DNA of 45,461 bases. Source: Parietichytrium sp. I65-24A (lineage: Eukaryota > Sar > Bigyra > Thraustochytrida > Thraustochytriidae). The DNA lies in assembly GCA_012862575.1 (NCBI GenBank), contig BLSF01000120.1:11554-57014 (forward strand), in the 5' to 3' direction. Shown piece by piece: positions 1-45,461 of the stretch. Position 1 is the stretch's first letter. Each line of letters starts with the position of its first letter. The notes beneath the pieces are model-generated. The model did not search any database. It saw nothing but the letters and a program-made list of their open reading frames with translations, and had not been told where the DNA came from. The position numbers were made by a program, and so were the translations under genes.

Positions 1-1191
1 TAAGTTGGAGCTTCAATTGCTTGCTTTCCAATTTCAAGGAGTTGCCGGTGTGGACGGGAAGGAGAGCAAGAATTTGTCAGCGCGATTGTGAAAGTATTTC
101 TTCTCGAACGATGTTACACAGTCATTCAAATTTAAAACTCTATGAGAATCAAGAAGACATGAAATCGAACAGAGTTGAAGTGTATATGTGGTACTAAGGA
201 AAAAAGATTTGAACACAAAGTTTATTGGCTCCTGGCGCAGCTGAAAGAACGCCGAAGCAAGTCAGATAAAGAAAGAAACTTTTGGATTGGAGAGCGCCGC
301 TTGCGTCTTCTTTAGAAGCTATGGCTCGTGACGGAGCTCCGGGAGCAGTCTGGGCTTTGGATTGGCTTTGCTTAGTGTTTCTATGCGGCGGCAGATCCCA
401 GGTCTCCAAGGTCTCGTCTGAACAGCATTGGTGCTACAAACACTGCAAACCTGTGCTCATCCTGCTGTTTCCATTCACGGCGTGACGTTGGCCATGCGTC
501 CGGACAGCGACGCGGGGTCATCATCCTTGTTTCAAACTTGGTTCCGTTGGTTGCAGTTCGTTACAGCTAGAAACGCTTTCCCAACTTTGTTCCCATTTGT
601 TGCTCTCCCTTGTTTTGGCGCGCTGCTTCCTTTAAAAGCTGTCTTCCGCTACTTGAGGAGAAACAGTGTCTGCCTGTATGTTGTCAGCGGCCAAGGAGGA
701 AGTCTTGTTGTTAAACATATTCTGTAACGCCGCGTACTCGCCCACACTCGAAACTATATTTCATACACGTCTCGCCACATACTTGGTTTCAGCCAAAAGC
801 ATAAAGAATGGCGGCTGCTCTTAGAAGAGCTGTGGAGGGGTTTCTCTCAGTCACTTGCAAGCGGAATCTTCGGCCCGCTTTCCAAGTTTCTCGAGAATCG
901 ACACAGCAACTATTGCCGTCAGCAACGCAGGCACCATTTCTAAAAACTCATCGCCCATCGCGACACATCCCAGAGCTATACTGCCAACTCAGCCAACTCT
1001 AGCTAGCCTAGCCTATCTGCAAAATAGACAAATAGATAATAAGTTACCTGCGCAAAGTGCGAACGCTCACTCAGCTCACTCACAAGAAACTTCCCCACAG
1101 TACCCCACAGCTCCCACAACTCCCACAGGTGCGGAGAAAGAAGGAGGAGAAGAAGAAGGAGGAGAAGGTTAGGTTAGGTTAGGAAGGCGGC
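1..1191. other. Upstream spacer of Exo70; no gene supported
   Basis: Short open frames occur on both strands here, up to about 105 codons, but they overlap one another, have unremarkable composition and resemble no protein I know. The last part, about 1138-1165, is strongly purine-rich (AAG/GGA units). It is followed by a short telomere-like run, GGTTAGGTTAGGTTAGG at 1167-1183, directly before the Exo70 start. I read the final few hundred bases as promoter and 5' leader of Exo70. The far left could hold the flank of a neighbouring gene that I cannot identify. Confidence 0.5.
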
Positions 1192-39411: not shown

Positions 39412-40995
39412 TACTGAGTTCTTTTCTGAGTGCAGCAATTCGCACTAGTAAGAAGGACATCAGTACTACTGGACTCTAATGGATAATAAGACTAGCACGC
39501 TCTATGTCTGAGAGAAGGTCCGGAGGTGTCATTAGTCACTGTGGTAGATATAGATAGGAGTTTTGGGAGGAGGAAGGACGCTAGGATACAAGGAATGTGT
39601 GAGACTCGAAAAATACATTTCTTCTCCATTTTGCAAATGGCCTAGTGCTCGCTAAATGACGGCGGTAATGAGGGCAAGCTGGGCTCGTAGGGTCCAATAG
39701 CAGACGCTTATGTCGGACTGGACTGGAGTAGGAATTAGCCGAGAAGATAGAACGGTCACTAGGATGGTCTCCCACCCACCGGAGCCACACGCAAAGCCCT
39801 CAGGACTATGAAGAGCTACCATGAGCTACCGATTAATATAGTACCTGCGACTGCGATCCTGGCATTTCGATTAATTAGTGGTAAGACCAAATTCGCCAGG
39901 ATTTTCGGGAGAAGAAAAGTGCATGTCTTATCACAACGCTAATCAACTCTATTTCGCACTCCTTTGCCATGTTCTCTACGAGCTCGCTCTAGCTAGACTC
40001 ACCTAGTCCCAACGCATATTTGGTGCTAAGGAATAATTAGCCCACCCACTGAATTGCACGTAATCAAAGTAAGCCGTAGACAAGGACTAGAGTCTGCAGA
40101 TGACGGCGAGTTTCGTCACGACCACGGGCGGCGACGCGGCAAGGTCGTCACGTACCACTATACTAGTATAAACAATAGCACTGGCACTTTCCATCTTCTG
40201 GTCGTGCTCTGCTTTTCCATCTCCTGCATAGGCTTTACTAGGCGGAGGATTGGCACGACTAGCAAGCCTACTATTCGCTACGCGAGACGTATTTAAATTG
40301 CGTAGTCAATGCCTAGCTATGTACACTGGGATGTTTGACGTCTTACCAAAGCTTAAGCAGCGGTACTAAGTTGAAACAAATCTCCGAGCAGAAGGGTCCT
40401 AGTGGATGGCAGTGATGGGTTGACTATAGTAATTGGTGGCGAGGCGTAGGAAGAGGTCTGCTTGGAGACTGCTAGGTTCGTCGTATAGGTATTGCTAAGG
40501 AGGTCGTTCCAATTTCGTGATAATAGTTGCATATCTGTCACTAGTGCTCGGAACCTCGGTGATGATGCGCACAGTAGCTTAAGAAGGCTTAACAGATATC
40601 TATTGCAGCGATCTTTTGGTGGCGAGGTTTTCACGATCGCTTAGGTTGAGAGGAGGGGTACAGGGCGAGTTATGTGTTGTAAAGAGGAATAACATGTTGG
40701 ATAATACTTTGTGAAGGCTGTTTGGTTTTGCATGGCATGATTTAGCGATGGTTTAAATAGCACTACACAGCGTCACCGCATTCGTTTGAATCGCAGGGGC
40801 TGAACGGGTGTATTGGACAATCTATTCTACGATTCTCGGTGAATATAGAGAAGTCATTTAAATGCATCCATTTTGCCGACGTGAGGATGTGCCGAAATAT
40901 GTGTCCACGTGCGCCAGGTACGCTGAGTACGCATTTACTATTAGTTTACTAGTTTTCGATTGACTGTGGGTCTACTCTAGTAGCTAGCTAGCTAG

Positions 40996-41022
40996 CAGAG
41001 CTGCTATGTAAGAAGTGGGCAA
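40996..41022 (+). repeat. Left terminal inverted repeat of the element
   Basis: It pairs with 43304-43330 with two mismatches over the outer 26 bases. Outside it lies CTAGCTAGCTAG. Confidence 0.85.
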
Positions 41023-41357
41023 AATCGACTTTTTTTTGTAGAGCGGCCATTTCTTGGCACGTGAAGGAGGGGTTTGCGCGACAAGCCGACCCCACCAGCG
41101 TGTCGGGCAGGGTCGAAAACCCTTAGCTGATGTCTCCCTCCCCTTGAACCTTCCCTCTTCTTGTCGCTGTGTGTGCTCGCGAGGTTCGCAGATGTGCTGA
41201 GATCTCCAGGTGTGAACGGATCTCTGTAAAGGGACTTGGAACACATGTGGGGCTTGAGGAGCAAGTGGAGAGCGCCTGGTCGATACGCGGTGTGTAAGAG
41301 GGTCTTGGAGGGATCTGTGGCGAGAGGAGAAAAGAATTTGAGTTATATTCGGAGTGT

Positions 41358-42348
41358 TTATGTCGATGCCTTGTTTGGGTTTCCCTTTTGAGAACGCCAG
41401 TTGCTGACGAACTTCTTGCAGGTTTTGTCATCCGGGAGATCGGACTGCTTGTCTTTGTATTTCTCCAAGAAGCTGCTCAGAACGAAAGCGCCTGTTGCCT
41501 GAGTATAGTTCTCGCGCATGCACGCCAGCATGTGCTCCACAAACTCGTCTGGCACTCCAGTTCTGTTTCCACGTTTGGTTCTGACATTGTCGGAAGTAGC
41601 AACAGGGTCATTCTGCCTCTTTCGCTTCCCGTTGCCGAGGTTTGCAGCCTTAATGAGCTGACCAGGTTGCTGCTTTGGCTTTCTGGCTTTCCTTATCTGG
41701 TTCATGTATCCCAGTCGTCTTGTTTGGTCGATGGGGATCGCTGAAGATTCGAAGTGTTTCACGAGAGCATCGAACACTTCCGATGTGCTCCACTTCGCTT
41801 GATCCCTCACGGTATCTTCGATGTATATGACATGCTCTGTCGGAAAGGTTCTGCGCGTATTTTCCATCATTTCTTCGGCAGATTTGATTCCTTGGTCTCT
41901 CATGCGAAGGAACTTCTGTATCTCCGCAAAGCAGTCCTTCTCTGATGGCAGGTCGAGCGCACCAGGGTACCGTTTCTCAAGCATATCCAGAAGTACGCTT
42001 GCGCCAATCTTGTCCCTTCCCTCATCCAACAACATTGAGAATATTTCTTGTCGGTACTTGTCTGCACGAGTTTGACCAACCATCTCACCTCGCCTTTGGC
42101 GCTGTGCCCAACCTGATCGGCGTAGCTTGTCCGCCGATGGCTTAAAGGCCGCTGCTTCCTCGTACTCGGGCTGCAATTCGCTGCCATTCCGGACCTTGAT
42201 TGTCGGGTCAGTCTGCAGCAGGTTCAGGACGCTTTGGACCGCCTGGGCGAACACGTCCTTGCGAGAAGTTCTCACCTCCGCTGCGTTGCTCGACGCATCA
42301 CGTCTTGGCTTGCGCGTCTGCCTTCGTTTACCATGTTGGTTCCGCGCC
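41358..42348 (-). CDS. Element-encoded protein, C-terminal part with three related domains
   Basis: From the ATG at 42348 this frame gives 329 residues; it is open without a stop back to about 42410, so the true start may be a splice junction. The N terminus is very basic (RNQHGKRRQTRKPRR), suggesting nucleic-acid binding or nuclear targeting. Three stretches of about 55 residues look like divergent copies of one helical domain: one with IGASVLLDMLEKRYPGALDL, one with STSEVFDALVKHFESSAIPI, one with ATGAFVLSSFLEKYKDKQSD. Each is preceded by a charged helix and followed by a lysine/arginine helix. Basic linkers (NGKRKRQND, RTKRGNR) separate copies two and three. I recognise no transposase catalytic motif. 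It lies wholly inside the inverted repeats. Confidence 0.6.
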
Positions 42349-42391
42349 ATAATCTCTTTTGCAGCTTGACCTCCACAGTCTTCTTCCAAGT

Positions 42392-43154
42392 CTAAATTTG
42401 AGTCCGTTGCCTACTGTGCTTCTCTTGCTTAAAGCGCTCCCCGTTGCGGATACGTACAGCATCCAGCTTGCCGTGCGTAAAGCTCCTTTTGCTGATATTG
42501 AAATTTTGTAGTGCGAGGTCATGTGCGGCCTGCAGAATTTCTACCCTGCTGTTCGAGTCGCACATCACAGCACGCATTACGCGTCTCTCAATGGAGCCTT
42601 TTGTAGACTTGGCATAGCCCTCCATCAAGAATTCTAATAACCCTTTCTCCGAAATTGAGCTCCGTTTGAGTTCTGCGTTTGCTGTGTCTTGAGCCAGCAC
42701 CTCTGGATCTGCCGGGTAAAGCGTTTTTGCGACAGTCTTCAGGCACTTCCTTGCTGCGTTCACAACATGGTTCCATTTGTCAGCACTTGTCTCCTTCATA
42801 CGTTTCTTTTGTCGGAGTTCTAATCCGGGAAACCTGGTTCTGAGAGACTTTGGAAGGTCCATCATATCGAAAAACGCAGTCGTCGTGATATCCTTCAGAA
42901 GTACTTGCTGCGTTTCCTCCGGCTCCTCATCATCAAAAGCAAGACCAACGTGTTCTTCCACCTCCTGCATAGAGACGCGCGGTGCTGTAACTCTTCGTGG
43001 ACGTCCAACAGGCGCGTCTGGAGGTGGAGGCGGGTCCACAGCTTCCACAATGCCTTCTTGGACGGCCAACGCGGTTAGCTCCGCCACTCTTGCATTTTGG
43101 GCAGTGTACCGAGCACTCAGTCGGGCACGCCTTACAAAATCCCTTCTTACATGA
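42392..43154 (-). CDS. Element-encoded protein, middle part (no own ATG)
   Basis: The frame is open from 43154 to the stop at 42392 but has no ATG near its start; a GTG lies at 43087. It holds a proline stretch, an AT-hook-like VGRPRR, an acidic block (FDDEEPEETQQ), then helical sequence (LPKSLRTRFPGLELRQKKR; NHVVNAARKCLKTVAKTLY; RRVMRAVMCDSNSRVEILQ). It probably continues into the 41358-42348 frame: a donor-like GTACGT at 42457 and an acceptor CACAGTAG at 42411 would remove 47 bases and join the two frames cleanly, though a frameshift mutation is equally possible. No family is recognised. Confidence 0.5.
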
Positions 43155-43169
43155 GCAAGTCTTCACCAT
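42933..43169 (-). CDS. Element-encoded cysteine cluster, N-terminal part
   Basis: The frame starts at the ATG at 43169, close to the right end of the element. The first 30 residues contain eight cysteines in a tight pattern (CSCKKGFCKACPTECSVHCP, then KCKSG), as in small zinc-binding modules; GRPRR follows. The later part loses protein character. The next frame (42392-43154) overlaps it and repeats the GRPRR word, so one protein may be broken by a frameshift or by an intron I cannot place. Cysteine clusters accompany some transposases (for example the CxC modules reported with fungal KDZ elements), but a link is only a guess. Confidence 0.45.
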   Translation of the reverse strand: MVKTCSCKKGFCKACPTECSVHCPKCKSGGANRVGRPRRHCGSCGPASTSRRACWTSTKSYSTARLYAGGGRTRWSCF

Positions 43170-43303
43170 GGTGCGTCCACGCGAGCTGCACCACCAAAGA
43201 CCTCGGATTTGGAGGAATCTCAGGACCGCCCAAATTTTCAAACTCTTGGAATTCAATAAAATTTCGAGGTGCCGAACTTGGGTTCTTGGCTTTCTACATT
43301 TTT

Positions 43304-43330
43304 ATGCCTACTTCTTACAGAGCAGCTCTG
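43304..43330 (-). repeat. Right terminal inverted repeat of the element
   Basis: It mirrors 40996-41022. Its last 13 bases, CAGAGCAGCTCTG, are themselves nearly palindromic. CTAGCTAGCTAG follows directly outside. Confidence 0.85.
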
Positions 43331-45461
43331 CTAGCTAGCTAGTCTCTGGGAAGATCTGCGATGTTTTATTATTGCCACGATTAATTGAAGGATCTCTTGC
43401 TTGACTCGATGTGTGAAACGAGACGGCTTTTCAATCGACGAACAAGATAGGCAAGCCAAAGACCAGACCATTCAAAAAAAAGCCATTCAAAATCAAGATT
43501 TGAAGCTGAAAGGTTGATTCTCAAGTATCGATTCGTTAACACGGGGAACAGTTTGGTCAATTTTTCCTCGTTCGCGCCACGCTTTTTGCAAGAATCTCTT
43601 TTTACCTTCTGGTCTTTGCCAACTCGTTCCGCGTCGTGTGCGAATCCCATACAAAGTAGTCTCAAGCTGTTTCAAAAACTTAGGCAACTTAACTCTCTCC
43701 GTTTCTCCTTCGTTTGGCTTTTTTGGCTTGCGAGAAACCCCCGGATCTTGGATCGCGGAGTCGTGCCAGGTGTTGACTATAGTTGAGGTCGAGAACTAAA
43801 CAACGTGATGTGCGTACACGTATACTCTGTGCCTTGTGTGATTGCAAGCACCCGCTTTGCAGTTAAATTCACTCGGCATGATCGCCCATTTATTACCGAA
43901 GAGTCTGTTTGCGCCTCGACAAGCTCATGTTTGGTTTTCTTCTAGTCCTGCAAGCCCAAATGTTTTCAAATTGGCTGACTGACTTCTGGGCAGCGAGCAT
44001 ACACCACTCCACCATCTGGCGGGTAATTGCGAACGGATTCTTAAAATTCCTTCCTGCGAAATCGTCTTGAATCTACTAAAACACCCGTCATCTTTTTGTA
44101 CCACCTTGCATTGTCTGCTTTGCTTTGAAAACCGGCGACATAAACTAGCGCTTGGGCATCACCTGTTTCCAGGATAATATTGCTTGTGCGTCATGTGTCA
44201 ACCACCTCTGACGATAGTCCACACCATTAAATTGTTGTGCTCTTCCGGGCCAGCGTCCAAGTTGACCGCGCTCTTGCTCTCTGTGATCTTGTCGAAAAAT
44301 ATTTCAGCCAATCAAGTCAGGGATAGGAACAAGTCTTTGAAACATTCATATCCGGAAAAGCCATGCCCAAAGTCCCGCGAAAAGGCAAAGTCCTATTCAA
44401 GCCTCTCAGATCAGTATGGAAGAGAATCGCGGACATTATGACAATTCAGAGATTCTTGGACTCGCCGCATGTTGCAAACTCAACCCAACTCGGAGGTGCT
44501 GTCCAAGAGAAGCAAATTTCCACTCCTTTCTCTTCGTGCAAAAGTTTGGGAACTAAAAACGGGCTTGCCTCATCATACGTTACACTTCTTTTCGTGCGAA
44601 AGTTTGTAGTTGTGCGCATGCACTTGAAGAAGACTTTTTTTGGCGAGACCCGGAGCGTCACGGGACATTTCTCGCCGGGAAGAGCAATTCACAAGCAATG
44701 CTTTACATTTCTCGTCGCCTTGCATGCAAACGCCTTTCGACACCAATTTTCTAAAGCCAGTTGACAATTTCGGAGGTATGGAACCGAACGCGCTGCAGCA
44801 AGCGAGCGAGTCCTGTGCATCTCCAAGAGCAGCGAGAAAGTGTTTGCGGAAGGGCTCACGCAACTTGACAAGGTGCGAGCTGGAGTCGACCGCTTTGGGA
44901 AACACGTCTTACATTTCATCGCGTTCGTCTCTCTCTGAGCGTGCTCTTTCTCATTCTCTCCAAGAAGTTTTCCTCCTCCAATCAAAATACGAGAGAGAGG
45001 AGGCTGGCACTGAGAACCACTCATCGTATTAAAGGTACGGAAGGGTTGATGAGGAACACCAGTTGCTAATACTTTCGCGGACGACAAGGATACCGGTACA
45101 AAATGAGGCATCGCCATGCTCGCGAACTTGAAAACGCACAAACCGTGCGGAATTGTTGTGTGATTTGCTGCCTTCTTCTTTAAAGCTTCCCGAATCTTAA
45201 AACCGAGGTGTTATTGCATCAGTGCCAACTTTACGAGATCAATCGTTTAACAAACGCCCAGGTGCACAGTTGCTTCTCCAAAAGAGTACTCTCAATAGAA
45301 CAACGAGCGGCCGACGTTCTTGCGAGTGAAATTCATGACGAACGACAGAGGACTCGAGTACATGGAATGTATGGCGTGGAATGGTACTTTCTTCGCCAGG
45401 TTGTATAAATTCGTTGCTGTCCATCAGGTGCTCAAGAGCCGATTATGTGCTGCACACAACG
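43331..45461. other. Right-end spacer; no gene supported
   Basis: After the CTAG run the DNA shows only short overlapping frames on both strands. The longest are plus 44363-44764 (133 codons, ATG start, begins MPKVPRKGKVLF), plus 44640-45032 and minus 44689-45141. They overlap each other and have no recognisable motif. The region could hold a decayed gene or the far flank of one beyond the window. Confidence 0.45.

Follow-up and report, generated by a model that had tools for sequence, protein, structure and literature searches.

What is the 2.3-kb sequence with matching ends that interrupts a run of CTAG repeats in Parietichytrium sp. I65-24A, and does it belong to a known class of mobile DNA? 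The element occupies positions 40996-43330 (2,335 bp) of the window, i.e., the whole stretch of 45,461 nucleotides that was analysed, which lies on contig C120 of a genome of 172 contigs (42.5 Mb) that we searched for relatives. A first-pass annotation, made from the letters of the window, had reported inverted ends, CTAG repeats on both flanks and one-strand coding sequence for a protein unlike recognised transposases, and all of these descriptions hold. In inverted orientation, 24 of the outer 26 bases agree between the end at 40996 and that at 43330, whereas the best alignments of 30 random pairs of 100-bp stretches of the window, taken 2.3 kb apart, reached at most 17/26. A repeat search identified inverted arms of 41 nt (40984-41024 and 43302-43342) that are 93% complementary, with the CTAG runs counted in. 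The outer 29 bases of the left end also match ends on contigs C93 (93%) and C50 (86%). The coding sequence lies on the minus strand, and the protein has no Pfam family match. Because the flanks on both sides are CTAG repeats, the length of the duplication is unreadable from this copy alone; shared lengths of 4, 8 and 12 bp are all compatible. The 496 bp of left flank occur once in the genome, and a search with them gave no paralogous empty site.

We consider it probable (about 0.85) that this is a non-autonomous copy of a cut-and-paste DNA transposon from which an internal part has been deleted. A search of the genome with the whole element gave a longer copy on C50, which is collinear with both arms of the window element (91.6% over 842 columns and 91.4% over 1,159) and carries 1,997 further bp between them. 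The C50 frame is open throughout (1,307 codons between stop codons, and 1,276 residues counted from behind the ATG; this protein is P0001, and its numbering begins at the codon after the ATG). Thus, the window copy follows a longer coding element except at one internal gap. Features are listed in Table 1. The 5' part of the window gene is in a frame that differs from both the gene start and the 3' part, and the 87% match of the 3' part extends to 42422, across a TAG. The dN/dS value of the C-terminal part against C50 (0.77, 331 codons) is close to the expectation for decay. The first-pass annotation had suggested a non-autonomous carrier of a novel gene. The first half of that suggestion stands; the second is rejected, as the coding sequence consists of the two ends of a transposase gene, frame-broken and with the core missing.

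Table 1. Features of the window element, and core deletions in the copies of the family (P0001 or related protein residues, approximate).
Feature	Position	Strand	Basis
Left target copy CTAG (inferred 4-bp target; last unit of CTAG run)	40992..40995	.	flank comparison
Left terminal inverted repeat, begins CAGAGCTGCTATGTAAGAAG	40996..41024	+	repeat search and end comparison
Transposase gene 3' part, C-terminal region, ~P0001 residues 927-1276, 350 codons open	41361..42410	-	protein match
Deletion junction, within a few bp	42405..42408	-	C50 comparison: L001:2630-4626, 1,997 bp, absent here
Transposase gene 5' part, ~P0001 residues 40-280	42395..43060	-	protein match
Transposase gene start: ATG (43167-43169), cysteine cluster, GRPRR motif	43050..43169	-	matches P0001 residues 2-39
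Right terminal inverted repeat	43302..43330	-	repeat search and end comparison
Right target copy CTAG (inferred 4-bp target)	43331..43334	.	flank comparison
Deletion, window copy	residues ~281-926		protein match
Deletion, C25	residues ~26-835		protein match
Deletion, C82 and C125 (one event)	residues ~123-918		protein match
Deletion, C1 (ends not established)	residues ~40-995		protein match
Deletion, C111	residues ~71-728		protein match

A stretch of 350 bp beside the junction (42405-42754) is 100% identical to C50, whereas neighbouring 100-bp windows are 90-95% identical. Gene conversion between the two copies could be the source of this identity. The case is weak because the window copy and C50 also agree at every base along another 150 bp (41902-42051).

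The genome search proposed in the first-pass annotation recovered related copies and the same ends elsewhere. Protein searches gave 25 matches for P0001 (E up to 0.001), 32 for P0002, the protein of the C37 copy, and 11 for the core of the C40 copy (both E up to 0.1). We sort the relatives into three putative subfamilies. Subfamily A comprises the window copy, C50, a fragment on C10 and a lone right end on C93; subfamily B comprises C37, its derivatives on C25, C82, C125 and C1, plus fragments; subfamily C comprises C40, C111 and one end on C151. Weaker matches outside the three include C21, C47, C53, C58 and others. The C37 copy is open over 1,238 residues and has a left end at L004:1464, but a right end was looked for and not found; in C50 no left end is recognisable. 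Two inverted ends are present in six copies (window, C25, C82, C125, C40 and C111), and C125 has a right end that falls ~15 bp short of the one in C82. C40 has both ends, with one TGA stop and a G in place of the second conserved D. The lone end on C93 (L003:1060) is 93% identical over 44 bp and sits in a CTAG run; the part of the contig downstream contains no partner end or transposase sequence. Contig C6 starts inside an element end (L018:1-220) and C10 ends 20 bases past one (L019:2069-2373). No complete autonomous copy was found in the genome. Assembly breaks coincide with copies on C6 and C10, and longer copies may therefore be missing from the assembly.

Loss of the core is recurrent. 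It is deleted with both ends kept in the window copy, C25, C82, C125 and C111; C1 also lacks it. These cases represent five separate deletion events across the three subfamilies, each of which removes all three conserved D positions. By match coordinates, the N- and C-terminal parts are joined out of frame in 5/5 deletions, and a fused repressor protein made by the derivatives was rejected on this ground. Internally deleted P elements (PMC12393704) and Dada-U6N1_DR (PMC3706591), as these sources describe them, are alike in their kept ends, lost catalytic middle and presumed movement in trans. They differ in that the parent transposase here has no named-family match in the libraries searched.

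Evidence for mobility comes from C82 and C125, where one derivative (98.7% identity across 1,812 columns) stands in flanks that show no similarity at E of 0.001 or less. One derivative thus occupies two sites with unrelated flanks, and therefore derivatives move. Flank lengths in common are 4 bp for C25, C82 and C125 (CTAG, the sole shared length in these three), 4 or 8 bp for C111, and 1 or 7 bp for C40. A 4-bp duplication thus fits five of the six two-ended copies, and C40 is the misfit. Three features expected of a transposon with terminal inverted repeats are present: inverted ends, a fixed-length target duplication and the same element at unrelated sites. A fourth, a DDE/D transposase with an RNase H fold, is predicted at low confidence.

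Most ends also adjoin a palindrome. CTAG adjoins 12 of 14 ends in subfamilies A and B, although four of the 14 carry a caveat: the C18 end was found only by a pattern containing CTAG, the C93 end by a query including flank, and the two window ends are the original finding itself. The C6 and C10 ends were found by a CTAG pattern and found again by a flank-free query. The ends of C50 and C37 do not adjoin CTAG. Elsewhere in the window, the density of CTAG is 2.46 per kb. GTAC adjoins 4/5 ends of subfamily C. A second copy of the repeat that hosts C111 lies inside the C111 element (L025:3973-4170) and is uninterrupted: where the insertion would be it has a run of GTAC, as a paralogous empty site would. 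Local rearrangement is an alternative reading here, because all copies of the repeat that were found lie at C111. On the simplest reading, the duplicated target would be a 4-bp palindrome, CTAG in subfamilies A and B and GTAC in subfamily C.

Judged by sequence, the protein is recognised by none of the libraries searched (Pfam, NCBIfam and PDB sequences). Nothing significant was found in Pfam for the window pieces (best E 0.14), in NCBIfam (best E 0.021, far below the cut-off score) or among PDB sequences (best E 0.28 and 0.53). Pfam searches at E up to 10 gave no match for P0001, P0002, P0003, the C21 frame or the core. Scans of viral, prokaryote and phage collections, made on contigs with a few peptide patterns and covering no eukaryotes, gave no relative, and no description of the family was recognised in the literature as judged by titles and the starts of abstracts. 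The two open cores have D-x(89 or 86)-D-x(40)-D in common (D566, D656 and D697 in the core with the spacing of 89), with LDAHFA at the third D; in C40, where the second D is replaced, the spacings are 91 and 40. The N-terminus carries 6-7 cysteines within the first 40 residues, with a GRP motif nearby.

Core models were made from three sequences each (581 residues, mean pLDDT 46; 256 residues, mean pLDDT 60). At this low confidence, the predicted order is strand, helix, two strands, helix, strand, helix, strand, helix. The conserved D positions fall just after strand 1, just after strand 4 and close to where the helix following strand 5 begins. Foldseek gave no match with E of 0.001 or less. 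The best VIA-align scores (Z 6.0 and 5.6) are within the range of chance arrangements. Matches listed include terminase nucleases, retroviral integrases, Argonaute and Prp8 RNase H-like domains (Z 4.7-6.0), and ribosomal small-subunit chains, kinases and a designed protein appear in the same listing with like scores. No eukaryotic cut-and-paste transposase is among the structural matches listed, which excludes none. The predicted strand and helix order resembles that of retroviral integrase and RNase H-like cores (HIV-1 core Z ~5), but no sequence similarity to these was found and the scores are too low for a claim of homology. An RNase H-like core fits these models, which prove nothing.

We infer the following scheme. 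The parent family would encode one long protein of ~1,240-1,280 residues, with an N-terminal cysteine cluster and GRP motif that presumably bind DNA, probably at the ends, an RNase H-like catalytic core in the middle that contains the three conserved aspartates, and a C-terminal part with an acidic and then a basic stretch. Working protein made elsewhere may bind the CAGAG... ends, excise the element in trans and reinsert it at a 4-bp palindrome (CTAG in this case), which would be duplicated. Internal deletion is the usual outcome of aborted repair after excision, and the window copy probably lost its core in one such deletion of ~2 kb.

How should this family be classified? Most likely it is an unclassified lineage of cut-and-paste DDD transposons, and the suggestion of a new family in the first-pass annotation is likely to be right. 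The lineage possibly has the rank of a superfamily, as judged against Pfam, NCBIfam, PDB sequences and the prokaryote, viral and phage collections. We tentatively propose, with a little less than an even chance of being correct, a not-yet-named superfamily with a DDD transposase of ~1,250 residues and palindromic tetranucleotide targets, whose lineages have switched between CTAG and GTAC. Its motif set would be D-x(86-89)-D-x(40)-D, DGKG..LDAHFA, the N-terminal cysteine cluster and GRP. By the rule used in Repbase, transposases of different superfamilies in principle do not converge in PSI-BLAST, with an E below 0.005 counted as convergence (PMC4455052). A separate superfamily would be one more beyond the 20 DDD/E superfamilies counted there (PMC9587614). 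If the proposal is true, sister lineages with different fixed palindromic targets form a natural pair and offer a handle on target choice. For annotation, a set of this genome's coding sequences that go unrecognised would be accounted for as remnants of transposons.

The nearest named parallels differ in specific ways. Kolobok, as described (PMC9587614), is alike in having a DDD/E-type core, here predicted, and a 4-bp palindromic target with central TA, but has TTAA targets and RR...YY ends, whereas this family has CTAG or GTAC and CA...TG. The family does not fit Kolobok: CTAG or GTAC adjoins 16/19 ends examined and TTAA none, every end begins with CA, and there is no conserved C/DxxH signature. 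Zisupton is described with 8-bp duplications, hAT groups with 5-8 bp, and EnSpm with 5'-CAC..GTG-3' ends and 3-bp duplications (PMC12730594). The family fits none of the three fully. The duplication length of Zisupton/KDZ does not agree with C25, C82 and C125, which share 4 bp only.

Of the other explanations, the least unlikely is that the family belongs to a named superfamily as a highly diverged lineage, most plausibly in the CACTA/EnSpm-Mirage-Chapaev-Transib group, with a core beyond the reach of Pfam. Most ends of subfamilies B and C begin with CACAC or CACTC and so share the CAC...GTG form with this group, as well as a short duplication; that of Chapaev is 4 bp. The ends of subfamily A are CAGAG (CAG...CTG) rather than CAC...GTG, and no Pfam match was found at E up to 10 for P0001, P0002, P0003 or the C21 fragment. 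Members of the group have an inserted domain between the second and third D, and the 40 residues available here leave no room for it.

An improbable alternative concerns the target, which might be TA only (Tc1/mariner-like), with the G or C as the outermost base of the element. TA is central in both CTAG and GTAC, and in such a palindrome a duplication of 2 bp looks the same as one of 4 bp. Apparently D is the third residue of the catalytic triad, as it is in mariner. Against this, the base outside TA is also fixed (C before TA at 12 ends of subfamilies A and B, G at 4 ends of subfamily C), and no Pfam match, Tc1/mariner types included, was found for the family proteins.

Repression of transposition by a remnant N-terminal protein that attaches to the ends, as in some internally deleted P elements, is highly unlikely to be why the derivatives were kept. 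The gene start, some or all of the cysteine cluster and a C-terminal part survive in each of the five deletions, and internally deleted P copies have been linked to a halt of invasion, in that case by outcompeting full-length copies (PMC12393704). Kept ends and nearby sequence are expected of any mobile derivative, and the repressor reading is opposed by the out-of-frame junctions, the further frame break in the N-terminal part of the window copy and the dN/dS of its C-terminal part.

The first-pass reading of the family as hAT with an 8-bp duplication is barely tenable: the window and C111 flanks are compatible with 8 bp, but the shared flank in C25, C82 and C125 is exactly 4 bp, Pfam searches gave no hAT domain for the proteins, and C/DxxH is absent between the second and third D in 3/3 cores (CAQH occurs in P0002 alone, ahead of a later conserved E). 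For hAT, that signature is described after the second D (PMC9587614), and the duplication as 8 bp, or 5-7 bp in named variants (PMC12730594). A genome search with PF05699 was uninformative, because no control genome gave a match.

Two very long open frames were also encountered elsewhere in the genome. One (C66:7956-22997) runs for 5,583 codons without a stop and has five carrier-protein domains; the other (C7:19811-27643) runs for 4,460 codons and has three. These are probably intronless giant synthases.
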